Of a stretch of 39,518 bases of DNA, positions 1 through 39,518 are shown piece by piece; the stretch's first letter is position 1, and every line of letters starts with the position of its first letter. The stretch is from a virus: IMG/VR virus record IMGVR_UViG_3300009011_000028, positions 1-39,518 of that record; one strand, 5' to 3'. The translations under genes were made by a program, and so were the position numbers. Under the pieces are notes generated by a model. It was not told the DNA's origin. It ran no database searches and saw nothing but the letters and a program-made list of their open reading frames with translations.

Positions 1-374
1 ACGCTTAGGCCGGCCGGCACGTTCTCGACTTTGAAGGTGATCGCGAAGCCGTGCGTCTGCATGATCGGCTTGATGACGTCGTTGATGTCTTCGAAGGTGG
101 CGTAATCGCTACGCTTCTGGCCGTTCACCACAATGGCGCCGCGCTCGGCGATGCTGGGGATGTCGCTCTGCATGGCCGCCATTGCCGCGTTAAATTCAGC
201 CTCGGCATCACGGGCCTGCATGCGCTCGTGCATCGCCATCAGGCGCTCAAGCTTGTCGATGTCACAGGTTGGATCTGTGGCGGCCCGGCTGATAACCGCC
301 AGGATGCTGCTGTCGGCCTGGGCGGACGCGGCCACCTGGCGGCGCTGCTCCGGCACAATGATCGTGCTGCTCAT
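1..374 (-). CDS. ERF-family single-strand annealing recombinase (N-terminal part)
   Basis: The reverse strand encodes at least 124 residues starting at ATG 374-372, preceded by a TGAGG Shine-Dalgarno sequence; the gene runs off the left window edge. The translation holds the segment YATFEDINDVIKPIMQTHGF, typical of the Erf/ERF superfamily (P22 Erf-like annealing proteins), after an N-terminal helical stretch rich in Met/Ala. Such proteins anneal complementary single strands and mediate RecA-independent phage recombination and circularisation. It starts 10 bp after the stop of the coiled-coil gene and is the furthest downstream visible gene of the leftward early operon. The C-terminal part is not in view. 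Confidence 0.85.
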   Translation of the reverse strand, partial: MSSTIIVPEQRRQVAASAQADSSILAVISRAATDPTCDIDKLERLMAMHERMQARDAEAEFNAAMAAMQSDIPSIAERGAIVVNGQKRSDYATFEDINDVIKPIMQTHGFAITFKVENVPAGLS

Positions 375-35863: not shown

Positions 35864-36310
35864 ATGACCACACCACGCGGCGTTCGCAACCGGAACCCCG
35901 GCAACATCGATTACAACCCGCGCAACGCTTGGCAGGGCCAGCTCGGCCTGGAAGAGGGTGTGTCCAAGCCGCGCTTTGCTCGCTTCGACCATCCCGAAAA
36001 CGGCATCCGCGCCCTGGGCAAGTTGCTGATCAACTACAGGGGCAAGGACGGCATGCCCGGAGTGGGCGGGAAGGGCATCGACACCGTGATCGAAACCATC
36101 AACCGCTGGGCGCCCAGCAACGAGAACGACACCCAGGCCTACGCCTCGGCTGTGGCCAAGCGCCTGGGCGTGCGCACCACCGACCCGATCAACATCAAGG
36201 ACCCGGCCACGCTGCGCGGGATGGTGCTCAGCATCATCATCCACGAAAACGGCGGGAATCCTTATCCAGACGCCATCATCAATGAAGGCGTACGGCGGGC
36301 GTTGGTATGA
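35864..36310 (+). CDS. Endolysin (P5-like muramidase/transglycosylase)
   Basis: This 148-residue protein reads GVRNRNPGNIDYNPRNAWQG, RFDHPENGIRALGKLLINY, DTVIETINRWAPSNENDT, the pattern of small phage lytic enzymes related to PRD1 P5/'structural protein P5' in Pseudomonas phages. It cleaves peptidoglycan glycan strands. It has no signal peptide, so it needs a holin, probably the membrane proteins at 12451-13039. The stop overlaps the Rz start (ATGA). Confidence 0.82.
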   Translation: MTTPRGVRNRNPGNIDYNPRNAWQGQLGLEEGVSKPRFARFDHPENGIRALGKLLINYRGKDGMPGVGGKGIDTVIETINRWAPSNENDTQAYASAVAKRLGVRTTDPINIKDPATLRGMVLSIIIHENGGNPYPDAIINEGVRRALV

Positions 36311-36834
36311 CCTGGATCGGCGCGGTGCCGGCCTGGTGCTGGTGGCTGATCGCTCTGGTGCTGGTGGCTGGAGGCCAGGAAATTCGCGTGGGAGCGGGGA
36401 AAACTGACGCCGCCACAGCCCGCGGCGAAACGGCCACGGCGCGAACCGAACTGTCCGACTATCGCCTGGAGGTCTCTGAACGCGACCGCCGCGCAGCGGC
36501 CCAGGCCAGAACCGAAGAGCAACGCCGCCAAGCCGTGGCGGACGAGGAGGGGGAGAGTGCACGACAAAAACTGGAACTGGCCCAAGGCCGCGCCACTGCT
36601 GCTGAGTCTGCTGCTGGCGGGCTGCGGGGTGAAATCGCCCGACTGCGCGCCGGCCGAGCAGCCACCTGCGACACCATCGCTACCCAGCAGCGCCAGGCAG
36701 GGACCTCTGCCGTCGTGGTGCTTGGGGGGCTGCTTGAAGAGGCTGACCGAATGGCGGGAAGCCTCGCAGAGGCGCTTGAGCGAAGTCGAATAGCAGGGAT
36801 GGCCTGCGAGGCTATATCCGAAGGTGTTAGATAA
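36307..36834 (+). CDS. Inner-membrane spanin Rz (DUF2514-like)
   Basis: This encodes 175 residues. An N-terminal membrane anchor (AWCWWLIALVLVAGG) is followed by a long periplasmic coiled coil (about residues 38-115, RTELSDYRLEVSERDRRAAA). The C-terminal region interacts with the outer-membrane spanin. It acts with Rz1 to fuse the inner and outer membranes at lysis. It overlaps the convergent reverse-strand gene by 8 bp at the stops. Confidence 0.85.
   Translation: MTWIGAVPAWCWWLIALVLVAGGQEIRVGAGKTDAATARGETATARTELSDYRLEVSERDRRAAAQARTEEQRRQAVADEEGESARQKLELAQGRATAAESAAGGLRGEIARLRAGRAATCDTIATQQRQAGTSAVVVLGGLLEEADRMAGSLAEALERSRIAGMACEAISEGVR
36557..36793 (+). CDS. Outer-membrane spanin Rz1 (nested in Rz)
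   Basis: GTG 36557 with GGAGG upstream opens a different frame wholly inside Rz. The 78-residue product has a lipoprotein signal (WPKAAPLLLSLLLAGCG, lipobox LAGC with the modified Cys at 23) and a Pro-rich region (APAEQPPATPSLPSSARQGP), typical of Rz1. The nested arrangement is the same as lambda Rz/Rz1. It supports the lysis cassette assignment. Confidence 0.85.
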   Translation: MHDKNWNWPKAAPLLLSLLLAGCGVKSPDCAPAEQPPATPSLPSSARQGPLPSWCLGGCLKRLTEWREASQRRLSEVE

Positions 36835-37627
36835 CGTACTCCATCAACCTGTCACTCGCTTTGATTATAACAGTGTCGACAAGTGGATCTATATTTCTAC
36901 CGTTGTGCACCAGGACAAAGTTTAGTCTGTATTCTCGTTCCTTCTTGAAGGTGGTCGGTTTGAAAAAAGCAGTGTGAGCCATGTGCTTAACAAGGCTTTC
37001 AAAATCGATTGTTTTGTGTTCTGTTATTGATATGTTTCTGTCGGCGTAAAAAACTGCCATGTCATCCACGTGAATCTGAATTTCTTTTGGGTCAATATCT
37101 TTGGGTATGACAAGTTCTTCGTTTTGGTCTAGAAGTCTTTCATATATGCAGTCAACAATCTCAGCTATAAAGCCTTTGATGTTTTCTCTTTTAATGCTCC
37201 AGTCGTCGTCGTAATCAGGGAAAATCTCTCTGCAGTCACCGGCCTCTGTTGACTCAGACATGCAGAAAACAAGGCTGCTAACTGCCTGTCGTTGGATGGA
37301 GATGTGGCCGTGCTCAATTGTGGCGTGGGAAGCGCTTTTTGAACTATATTTAAATTGGTTGTTTACCTTTGCTACGAAAACTCCCGGGAAATGGACCGGC
37401 TCGCATCCAGCATCCCCAAACCCAATTTGCCGTTGAAATAAAGTGTTAAACCATTTTTTGTGAACCGTAATTGGTGATTCGATATTGATATCGAAAAATA
37501 GTCTCCCTTCGTTGGTGTCCGCTATTTGTTCGATTTCAGTTTTCCTGTAATGCTCCAGTGTGGCGAGTTTTAATGTCTTCCTGCGCGAGATGTTATCTGT
37601 CGCGTGGCAACTTTTAGTCAATAGCAT
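36827..37627 (-). CDS. AT-rich reverse-strand moron (266 aa), unknown, defence candidate
   Basis: The ATG at 37627 is preferred; a TTG at 37645 would add six residues. The coding text is visibly AT-rich against the GC-rich phage genes, so it was probably acquired recently. It is convergent to the late operon. The N-terminus reads LKLATLEHYRKTEIEQIADT, then NEGRLFFDINIES; the C-terminus has FKKEREYRLNFVLVHNGR. The K-E-x-E-[YW]-R-L motif resembles the end of DUF2971-type proteins, some of which lie in defence loci, but the match is weak. It is a soluble protein with no transmembrane segment. A lysogenic conversion or anti-phage function is the likely guess; no activity can be assigned. Confidence 0.65.
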   Translation of the reverse strand: MLLTKSCHATDNISRRKTLKLATLEHYRKTEIEQIADTNEGRLFFDINIESPITVHKKWFNTLFQRQIGFGDAGCEPVHFPGVFVAKVNNQFKYSSKSASHATIEHGHISIQRQAVSSLVFCMSESTEAGDCREIFPDYDDDWSIKRENIKGFIAEIVDCIYERLLDQNEELVIPKDIDPKEIQIHVDDMAVFYADRNISITEHKTIDFESLVKHMAHTAFFKPTTFKKEREYRLNFVLVHNGRNIDPLVDTVIIKASDRLMEYVI

Positions 37628-37750
37628 TAGGGCATCCACTTGCAATGTTGTTGGATGTCATAATGGCATCACTTGCAACGATTGGACAGCCGACGGGAGG
37701 AAATTGGCTGGCTGATCTATGATGGACAGAACGAGTTGTCGGAACGGGCG

Positions 37751-37975
37751 ATGAACAAGCGCACTTTTATTGGAATGATTGAGGCCGGCGAACCGCTGAT
37801 TCAGCAGGCCATCGACGCCATGCGGGAGTATCACCAAGCTCAGGATAGCGGCGCGCCTGCAGAGGAGATCGAGCGCCTTCGCCTGCTAGCCGAGTCGTTG
37901 TTCCAGGCTGTCTCTGACTACCAGCTTCGCGCTGTGGCCAAGGCTCGGGGCAAGGAGTTGCCGCCTCTCCACTGA
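37751..37975 (+). CDS. Hypothetical small helical protein (74 aa)
   Basis: The start is set at ATG 37751 (MNKRTFIGMIEAGEPLIQQA), eight bases after GGAAC; the frame is open to 37673 but the upstream text is not protein-like. Mostly helical, charged and without cysteines (REYHQAQDSGAPAEEIERLR; FQAVSDYQLRAVAKARG). It is divergent from the AT-rich gene. Family unknown. Confidence 0.6.
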   Translation: MNKRTFIGMIEAGEPLIQQAIDAMREYHQAQDSGAPAEEIERLRLLAESLFQAVSDYQLRAVAKARGKELPPLH

Positions 37976-38016
37976 TCCGCTGATCGGCGATTGCCCGAGG
38001 CTAGGTCCGCCTATAC

Positions 38017-38040
38017 GATACTGTATCTTTATACAGTATC
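38017..38040. promoter_or_regulatory. LexA (SOS) box
   Basis: GATACTGTAT CTTT ATACAGTATC is a perfect 10-bp inverted repeat with a 4-base spacer. The core CTGTATCTTTATACAG fits the gammaproteobacterial LexA consensus CTGT-N8-ACAG exactly. It lies 9 bp before the start of the two-gene cassette. Confidence 0.85.
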
Positions 38041-38048
38041 GGTGCCTC

Positions 38049-38342
38049 ATGTATTTCCTCCTCGTTCGCCGCCGGATGAATGGCGTGGCCATCCCTGCCG
38101 ATCACCTCAGGAAGGTTCAGCCGCTCCGGGCCGACGTCCATATCGGCGACCACCACAGTGAACCGCTGGGGCGGGTATCGACCCAGGCATGGGTGTTCAA
38201 TCCAACGCCCGGGCCCGATATCATCCCGCGCCTGCACGACGCCAGGGTCAACGGGATGGCCCAGCTCGGCATCAACATCAACGGGCTTGAAGAAGTCGAC
38301 GGCGTTCTGTACGCCCAGTCCTGGTGGTGCAGGGCAGAATGA
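38049..38342 (+). CDS. SOS-regulated small protein, first of two (97 aa)
   Basis: It starts at ATG 38049, eight bases beyond the LexA box, with a poor ribosome site. It reads [20 protein letters not shown], then [20 protein letters not shown] and [20 protein letters not shown] recall this type of protein from the ends of Pseudomonas prophages and islands, uncharacterised and often preceded by LexA boxes. The stop overlaps the next start (ATGA). Induction with DNA damage is inferred. Confidence 0.75.
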
Positions 38343-38638
38343 TGGCTGGATTACCACAGGCCTGGGTGGCGGAACTGGATGACCAGACTGCCCTGGTAAC
38401 TGACCCTGATGGGCGAGCGGCTGTGCTCAGTGAAATGGCCTATGCTGCGCGCCGGCGCCGGGACATCGACGATGACACTCTGGTCGACATGCTCGAGCTT
38501 GCCGAGGCGGCCCGACTTTGGGCGCTGATGGAGCACGAGGAAGCCTGGGCGCTGGGTTTGTTTGGCGACTATCCGCAGGAGCATCCCGGCGGCGCACAGG
38601 TGATGAAGGGAAGCAGCAAGGCTTTCGCCTGTGAGTAG
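38339..38638 (+). CDS. SOS-regulated small protein, second of two (99 aa)
   Basis: ATG 38339 or 38342. It is an acidic, helical protein ([20 protein letters not shown], then [15 protein letters not shown]) following an N-terminal small beta segment ([20 protein letters not shown]). It is coupled to the upstream gene through an ATGA overlap. No known function. Co-occurrence suggests that the two act together. Confidence 0.7.
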
Positions 38639-38656
38639 GTATATAAAGGAAGGGAA

Positions 38657-38672
38657 GCGTTCGGCCGAACGC
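38657..38672. repeat. 16-bp perfect palindrome
   Basis: GCGTTCGGCCGAACGC, directly after the SOS cassette and before the att-flanking repeats. It is not followed by a T run, so it is not a standard terminator; it may be a protein-binding site or structured DNA. Confidence 0.5.
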
Positions 38673-38693
38673 CGCAGGGGAGATCTTGAAACG

Positions 38694-38723
38694 TGGGACA
38701 AATCTGGGACATCGAATGTCCCA
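38694..38723. repeat. TGGGACA repeats left of the att core
   Basis: TGGGACA lies at 38694-38700 and 38705-38711 (11 bp apart, one helical turn), with the inverse TGTCCCA at 38717-38723; the second and third form TGGGACAT CGA ATGTCCCA. Repeats beside an att core are candidate arm-type integrase or excisionase sites. Confidence 0.55.
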
Positions 38724-38815
38724 AACCATGATGAATCAAGATGCGGGAAAATTAAGCGAAACCCAATAAATACAGTAGGTTGGGCGGTTTCGTGAAGTAA
38801 AATAGCAGGTCTATA

Positions 38816-38864
38816 CCGGATTGCAAATCCGTCTACGCCGGTTCGATTCCGACCTCGGCCTCCA
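38816..38864 (+). other. tRNA-Cys(GCA) 3' half, attachment-site core
   Basis: The anticodon loop TTGCAAA (38821-38827) has stem CGGA/TCCG. The T arm (38837-38853) has one C:A mismatch, and the acceptor 3' strand CTCGGCC, discriminator T and CCA end at 38864. No matching 5' half (GGCCGAG and D arm) occurs upstream, so this is not a complete tRNA. A 3' half inside a phage is the usual attP/attR identity segment for tRNA-targeting integrases. The integrase gene lies 100 bp to the right. Confidence 0.8.
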
Positions 38865-38875
38865 CCATTCGAAAG

Positions 38876-38904
38876 CCCCGCAGATTAACCTCTGCGGGGT
38901 TTTT
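38876..38904 (+). terminator. Terminator after the tRNA-Cys half
   Basis: A 9-bp perfect stem CCCCGCAGA/TCTGCGGGG with a 6-base loop TTAACC and TTTTT. It could be the host tRNA's terminator carried on the att segment, or serve the phage transcript; it separates the accessory genes from the integrase. Confidence 0.85.
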
Positions 38905-38927
38905 CATTATGGGTCCAAAAAAGGCAT

Positions 38928-38963
38928 GAGTTCCGAAACTTTCGGGGTGGAGTTCCGAAACTT
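38928..38963. repeat. GAGTTCCGAAACTT direct repeats between integrase and att
   Basis: Exact 14-base copies at 38928-38941 and 38950-38963, 22 bp apart (two helical turns); the second touches the integrase stop codon. Their spacing and place suit integrase arm-type sites. Confidence 0.6.
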
Positions 38964-39518
38964 CAGCCTTTTGAGGGCTTTGCGATCGCGCCGACGCGCC
39001 GGTAAACACGCTCGGTAATTCCCTCTTTCGAGTGCCCCAGCAGCACGCTTGCCTCACTCAGGTCGTTGATCTCCGATGCGGCCTTCGGTCGGATATCACG
39101 GAACTGGAACTGGGCGATTCGATTAGCTAGGTCTGGCTTCTTCTCCAGTTCGGCTTTTACCCTGGCTGCCTCGCGGGCATCTGCCCACCGGTTCCGCAGC
39201 ATAGGCCAGCTCATGCGCTTGCAGTGCTCGTTGACGATGAAGAACGGCGAAAGGTGCTGGCTGGTGTATCGCATGATCCGATCGAGCAGCAGGCCCAGGC
39301 TGTTCCTCACGCCATTCGCTTCCAGGACGATCCTCAATCGCTTGCCGGTCTTACCTTGGCTGACCAGCAGGTAGATCCCTTCCATATCGTCCTTCCGCAT
39401 GGACAGCACGTCCGACGGCCGCTGGCCGGTCAGATACGCCAGGTCCATTGCATCCTTCAGCTCCGGTGGAGCCTCCTCATACACCGCCTGCCATACCGTT
39501 TCGTTGGCGTAGAAGTCG
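38963..39518 (-). CDS. int: Tyrosine recombinase integrase (C-terminal part)
   Basis: At least 184 C-terminal residues; the gene continues past the right edge in an open frame (DFYANETVWQAVYEEAPPEL). The catalytic pattern is visible: Arg in YLTGQRPSDVLS, Lys-type beta turn in SQGKTGKRLRI, the box II RDIRPKAASE (Arg in place of the usual His first), LGHSKEG with the third catalytic residue, and nucleophile Tyr in ITERVYRRVG. The stop at 38963 faces the att core. It integrates the element at tRNA-Cys. Transcription is leftward, as lambda int. Confidence 0.92.
   Translation of the reverse strand, partial: DFYANETVWQAVYEEAPPELKDAMDLAYLTGQRPSDVLSMRKDDMEGIYLLVSQGKTGKRLRIVLEANGVRNSLGLLLDRIMRYTSQHLSPFFIVNEHCKRMSWPMLRNRWADAREAARVKAELEKKPDLANRIAQFQFRDIRPKAASEINDLSEASVLLGHSKEGITERVYRRVGAIAKPSKG

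Follow-up and report, generated by a model that had tools for sequence, protein, structure and literature searches.

The stretch of DNA analysed here (the window) is a whole IMG/VR record of 39,518 bases, which is classed as linear and at both ends breaks off inside genes. An Erf-like gene on the minus strand, belonging to the early-left region of a prophage, is cut by the left edge, in agreement with the earlier note, in which an early-left operon was said to run off that end. At the right edge a partial tyrosine integrase reads back toward the 3' part of a tRNA-Cys gene, which is flanked by two different sets of short repeats (Table 1).

Table 1. Features of the window; types A, B and C are those of the integrases that adjoin the tRNA-Cys core.
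Feature	Position	Strand	Evidence or remark
Erf-like single-strand annealing protein	3..374	-	phrog_155, E 4.5e-29; C-terminus cut by contig start
Right end of left prophage	35864..38638	+	ORF labelled endolysin by PHROG (category head and packaging); Rz-like spanin
Small right-end ORFs	within 35864..38638	+	phrog_9523, 5560, 6137
Left arm	38631..38815	+	among 33 other arms, matches type-C elements and short C-arm remnants only
Left arm repeats, type C	38694..38723		TGGGACA, TGGGACA, inverted TGTCCCA
Core, 3' 49 nt of tRNA-Cys	38816..38864	+	alignment to complete tRNA-Cys/type-A locus L051 begins at 38816
Terminator-like hairpin, then T run	38872..38903	+	inverted repeat I2, 92% complementary; between core and right repeats
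Right arm repeats, type A1	38928..38963	+	two direct GAGTTCCGAAACTT copies, starts 22 bases apart
Type-A tyrosine integrase, C-terminal 184 residues	38963..39517	-	Pfam Phage_integrase (PF00589), PHROG integrase; N-terminus beyond contig

Parts of the right end of the left prophage are conserved at the right ends of other phages using the same site, and the Erf stretch at its other side is 99% identical in G032, a phage record with a type-C integrase. Among named phages, no record had a single place spanning 80% of one or the other part of the window used as query. A minus-strand ORF of 272 aa (36827-37645) separates the spanin gene from the right-end genes and lies in a stretch of about 41-46% GC, compared with about 54-68% around it. 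At a threshold of E 0.001 neither Pfam nor PHROG gave a family for it, and the one match was a weak PADLOC match to a restriction-enzyme model (E 0.0012); it has the look of a cargo gene.

The 3' half of tRNA-Cys is indeed the only part of this gene in the window, as had been claimed from the bare sequence: ARAGORN detected no complete tRNA there, and a 43-base tRNA-Cys stretch occurs once, at 38822-38864, where none is expected by chance. The repeats reported on either side of it were likewise recovered. To the left, all three TGGGACA sites of the window (38694-38700 and 38705-38711 on the plus strand, 38717-38723 on the minus strand) fall within 30 bases, and it is their clustering that is striking, their number being not above chance (mean 4.83). 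To the right, GAGTTCCGAAACTT is present in two perfect copies (38928-38941 and 38950-38963); at up to two mismatches the motif matches three times against 0.16 expected, a number reached in 0/100 shuffles. The same repeats adjoin a complete tRNA-Cys with a type-A integrase in isolates, e.g. at L051 and L052. The arm repeats are putative integrase-binding sites.

The integrase gene reads toward att, just as first described, and is open at the contig end. Its Pfam match scores 38 bits against a cut-off of 27.1, and the visible part is 95% identical to the 350-aa integrase at L051 in Pseudomonas sp. URMO17WK12:I11. It belongs to the tyrosine integrases of tRNA-Cys type A, the half tRNA adjoining it here and the complete one in L051.

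Relatives were collected by the exact core (49 loci in 41 viral records), by the integrase (23 genome loci, 23/23 of them from Pseudomonas, and 34 loci in viral contigs) and by the Erf protein (80 loci kept of 115). Three integrase types were found to adjoin the tRNA-Cys core, each with arm repeats of its own. The window's type A (350 aa) shares 58% identity with type B (354 aa), and both point toward the tRNA; type C (325 aa), with 24-26% to type A over part of its length, points away from it. On the integrase side the repeats are GAGTTCCGAAACTT-like or AGTCCCAAAAC-like in type A, CGTTTCCGCAT or TGTTCCGCAAC in type B and TGGGACA twice with an inverted copy in type C, all of these being consensus sequences drawn by eye. 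Related motifs, also recognised by eye, stand at the far ends, namely inverted GTTCCRAAAC-like pairs (A), TGCGGAA-like motifs (B) and a TGGGACA triplet (C), and type-C elements carry the TGGGACA motif on both sides of the core. A motif first labelled A3 was reassigned to type B, as it adjoins a type-B integrase in 5/5 loci. As a side observation, a second tyrosine recombinase (open frame of 446-580 aa) lies well inside viral records with a type-A or type-B integrase (G001, G011, G015, G030, G038, G041, G063, G064, G065, G067, G068).

The arm at the right end of an element matched the type of its own left-end integrase in 29/29 elements of at least 22 kb (11 C, 10 A and 8 B). The match was taken from the nearest neighbour on 140-base arms, with short elements, the window and near-identical copies barred as neighbours; single-linkage clustering of 200-base arms had put 32/34 arms in one cluster and was of no use. 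For 25 non-redundant elements the permutation chance is 6e-11 if they are independent, which finds from databases are not, and two of the 29 matches are weak (G074 with E 0.02, and G092e2 with E 4.6e-4, level with a B arm). Outside the 29 stand records in which the own integrase or the other end is missing (e.g. G005, G017, G021, G022, G023, G027, G028, G033, G034, G040) and those split over contigs (G072, G075, G471).

Without the size limit the rule fails. Short elements (up to 15.3 kb) had unlike ends in 4/4 cases, an A or B integrase being paired with a C arm (G327 with 4.1 kb, G190 with 4.9 kb, G073 with 6.8 kb and G077 with 15.3 kb); the integrase is broken in G073 and G077 and of full length in G327 and G190. 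A search for a C arm at the tRNA-Cys core in 398 Pseudomonas genomes matched seven, of which two show matched ends on one contig (G092, G230) and the majority of four unlike ends, while in the last one (G471) the tRNA with the C integrase is on another contig. On the simplest reading the four short unlike elements would have arisen by deletion between neighbours in an array. Two of them, L233 in G327 and L234 in G190, extend over 4.1 and 4.9 kb from tRNA-Cys to a half tRNA with C-type far arm; they hold a few ORFs besides their full-length A or B integrase and are regarded as remnants or small mobile islands.

Measured against this scheme, the two sides of the window are of different types. 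Its left arm has the nearest full-size arm in G002, a C arm (83% over 123 bases, E 2e-33), and of the 33 arms compared, none of type A or B matched it. Homology to L051 extends from 38816 to the contig end (90.6%), and homology to the C phage G032 covers 38631-38921 and then stops, so that the change-over lies in the core or just after it. The left arm is hence of type C, and the right arm and the integrase are of type A, which makes this single core copy the probable meeting point of two unlike elements. Strand exchange would have taken place within 38816-38864 or within the shared stretch up to about 38921.

The earlier note had offered either a circular phage map, with att as attP and the edges of the window joining in one genome, or tandem elements, the second of which starts after this att; the latter reading is supported and the former is not. 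Were the record a linear cut of one circular phage genome, with the visible integrase as its own, the lambda-like gene order would fit, and a relative of the window's Erf gene does follow an A or B integrase at a distance of roughly 8-9 kb in G035, G014 and L053. IMG/VR classes the record as linear and gives no end repeats for it, and a circle may be assembled without overlap. The short elements described above include some that pair an A integrase with a C far arm, and in G021 (45414 bases) the half tRNA of L022 has C arms on both sides and an adjoining C integrase, a layout which a possible permuted circular genome or a C-C tandem would produce. However, a circular attP should carry repeats of one type on both arms, and the window has TGGGACA to the left and GAGTTCCGAAACTT to the right; its left element, with at least 38.8 kb, belongs to the size class in which ends were always matched. 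Moreover, the integrase proper to a C arm reads away from the tRNA and is only distantly similar to type A, whereas the visible one reads toward the core. Unlike arm types together with consistently matched full-size ends thus favour a tandem over a circle, which we consider very improbable.

Seams of this kind are also present in isolates. The junction of C with A1 in G002 is 88% identical to the window over 38629-39181. At its other end that element has a complete tRNA-Cys and next to it a C integrase identical to the one in G032. Its gene order is the window's in the parts compared, where alignments cover about a quarter of the stretch left of the core; the A integrase of G002 is a C-terminal piece only within that record. 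In G092, a single contig of 4.78 Mb, a complete tRNA-Cys and a C integrase are followed by 45.9 kb, a C arm and a half tRNA, then by a full-length A integrase, 48.7 kb, an A arm and a further half tRNA, and finally by the last 23 residues of a B integrase. The complete chromosome CP077096 (P. wayambapalatensis) carries an A phage of about 54 kb, behind which come a half tRNA and a B integrase (residues 36-354 match), and the 112-kb record G020 shows C, B and an A arm in a row. Further tandems were found in G030, G011 and G003. A complete tRNA-Cys at the proximal end of the array was seen in G002, G010, CP077096 and, by reading of the sequence, G092.

These isolates bear on a second alternative, an assembly chimera in which a C phage and an unrelated tRNA-Cys locus with A integrase were fused at the tRNA-Cys stretch they share. 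Roughly 50-100 bases around the core are nearly identical on both sides and could have served for such a fusion, but the seam of C with A recurs in isolate genomes, in one of them with 88% identity across it, and assemblers usually stop at such a branch. An artefact of this sort is therefore quite unlikely.

Altogether 65 distinct junctions were obtained after duplicates over 60+60 bases had been dropped, and a complete tRNA was recognised at 25 of them. Among the remaining 40, typing succeeded on both sides in 29 and failed in 11; the latter include L034 and L047, both cut by a contig end (L047 looks like a complete tRNA). The typed half-tRNA junctions join unlike types in 25/29 cases, the window included, and like types in 4/29. 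An apparent deficit of like-with-like junctions (4/25 against 8.4 expected, p 0.03) was lost after removal of near-duplicates (4/21 against 6.7 expected, p 0.13).

The right element might be merely a decayed integrase in the host flank, which would be a sub-case of a tandem junction and not exclusive of it. Among the 23 loci which the integrase search gave in Pseudomonas genomes, a type-A integrase is full-length and in a single frame in seven, while the copies are broken or partial in 16 (one of these, L072, being cut by a contig end), and of the seven genomes with a C arm at the half tRNA just one has a full-length A integrase within 1.5 kb behind it. Against decay stand the 184 uninterrupted codons of the window's piece and its close identity to the L051 integrase, whereas the longest unbroken C-terminal piece among the broken or partial copies amounts to 131 residues (L056). 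This comparison of lengths favours an intact gene, and decay is considered the less probable, if still a realistic, state of the right element. In seven loci of Pseudomonas genomes (L061, L062, L063, L065, L068, L069, L073) a complete tRNA-Cys is followed by the last 38-89 codons of a type-A integrase; such pieces are viewed as decayed tails of former elements adjoining tRNA-Cys.

Since the left arm is of type C and full-size ends are matched, the left phage should carry a C integrase to the left of position 1. In G032 a further 12.5-13.5 kb separate the type-C integrase from the place corresponding to window position 1, and by this spacing the predicted gene would probably be found about 13 kb outside the record, so that the phage of the window would measure about 52 kb. 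The gene order of G032 is the window's along its length, though the alignment covers only 6,723/38,815 bases, or about 17%, of the stretch left of the core. Of twelve records with an Erf stretch of 94-99% identity in which the core was looked for, G032 alone holds it, whereby provirus records may have been trimmed short of the site. A Phage_integrase match is present in 9/12: one of type C (G032), one of type B (G052) and seven others with open frames of 392-420 aa. Because the integrases of the Erf relatives are so mixed, the missing left end was predicted from the arm and not from the Erf gene.

Taken together, att at 38816-38864 is most probably (about 0.87) the hybrid junction between two members of a tandem array that occupies a tRNA-Cys gene of Pseudomonas. 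Left of the core would be the end of a lambda-like prophage of the type-C integrase family; on its right a second element would start, one of the type-A family with an integrase directed back at the core. Each phage integrase would join its own attP to any copy of the tRNA-Cys 3' half, and every insertion would rebuild the tRNA gene proximally and leave a half-tRNA copy on the far side. With a restored tRNA and half copies at hand, elements with different integrases could stack in one array. The arm types with their link to integrase type, the recurrence of the seam in isolates and the shared gene order of a type-C phage are observed, whereas the activity of both elements and their state beyond the window are inferred.

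Tandem accretion at tRNA genes is already known, and the seam described here is a new, well-resolved case of it. Pavlovic and colleagues are said to have described such accretion of genomic islands in 2004. A literature search for tandem prophages at Pseudomonas tRNA-Cys with their integrase found no paper, and a related one listed two with titles on other subjects. The asn tDNA islands of Klebsiella (PMC4891358) are a case of tandem accretion in which, as here, a newcomer inserts beside an element already present at the target, their integrases not necessarily being close; unlike there, the left element here is a Pseudomonas phage and the seam is known by unlike arm repeats. For the Oenococcus oeni prophages with IntB and IntF at one tRNA-Leu (PMC8074189), distinct integrases with a common core, specific sets of attP arm repeats and tandems of a prophage with a remnant are given; host and tRNA differ, and at tRNA-Cys there are three types, with C at about 25% to A and in opposite orientation. 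Tandem prophages at one tRNA-Leu site are also discussed for Sulfitobacter (PMC7305329).

That tRNA-Cys serves as an attachment site in Pseudomonas is in print as well. Prophage 05 of Pseudomonas fluorescens Pf-5 (PMC2647930) is a single 2.6-kb remnant at tRNA-Cys with a truncated integrase and 84-bp direct repeats, one of which overlaps the anticodon and T loops; its likeness to the window is that of the tRNA. A Pseudomonas syringae prophage excises from tRNA-cys and circularises, PCR having marked it there as an active attachment site (PMC10107160); here too the likeness is one of site. The word 'tandem' is absent from the main text of either paper. As the tRNA-Cys site, separate arm repeats for distinct integrases at one tRNA (PMC8074189) and tandem accretion have all been published, the seam is counted among a known kind.

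For the annotation of phage records a rule of thumb can be drawn: at a tRNA core the arm repeats of both sides should be compared before a contig is called circular, as two elements are indicated where the arms beside a full-size phage differ. The record of a phage can break off within the integrase of its neighbour, by which the wrong integrase, and hence the wrong attachment specificity, would be assigned to that phage. A more far-reaching idea, doubtful at present, is that with three integrase types at one core tRNA-Cys acts as an exchange hub, where arrays of C, A and B elements recombine via half-tRNA copies. If this were true, deletions or cross-element excision would give rise to new elements whose ends are exchanged. 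The short A/C and B/C elements (4-15 kb) would be counted among these, and two phages could come together in a composite circle.
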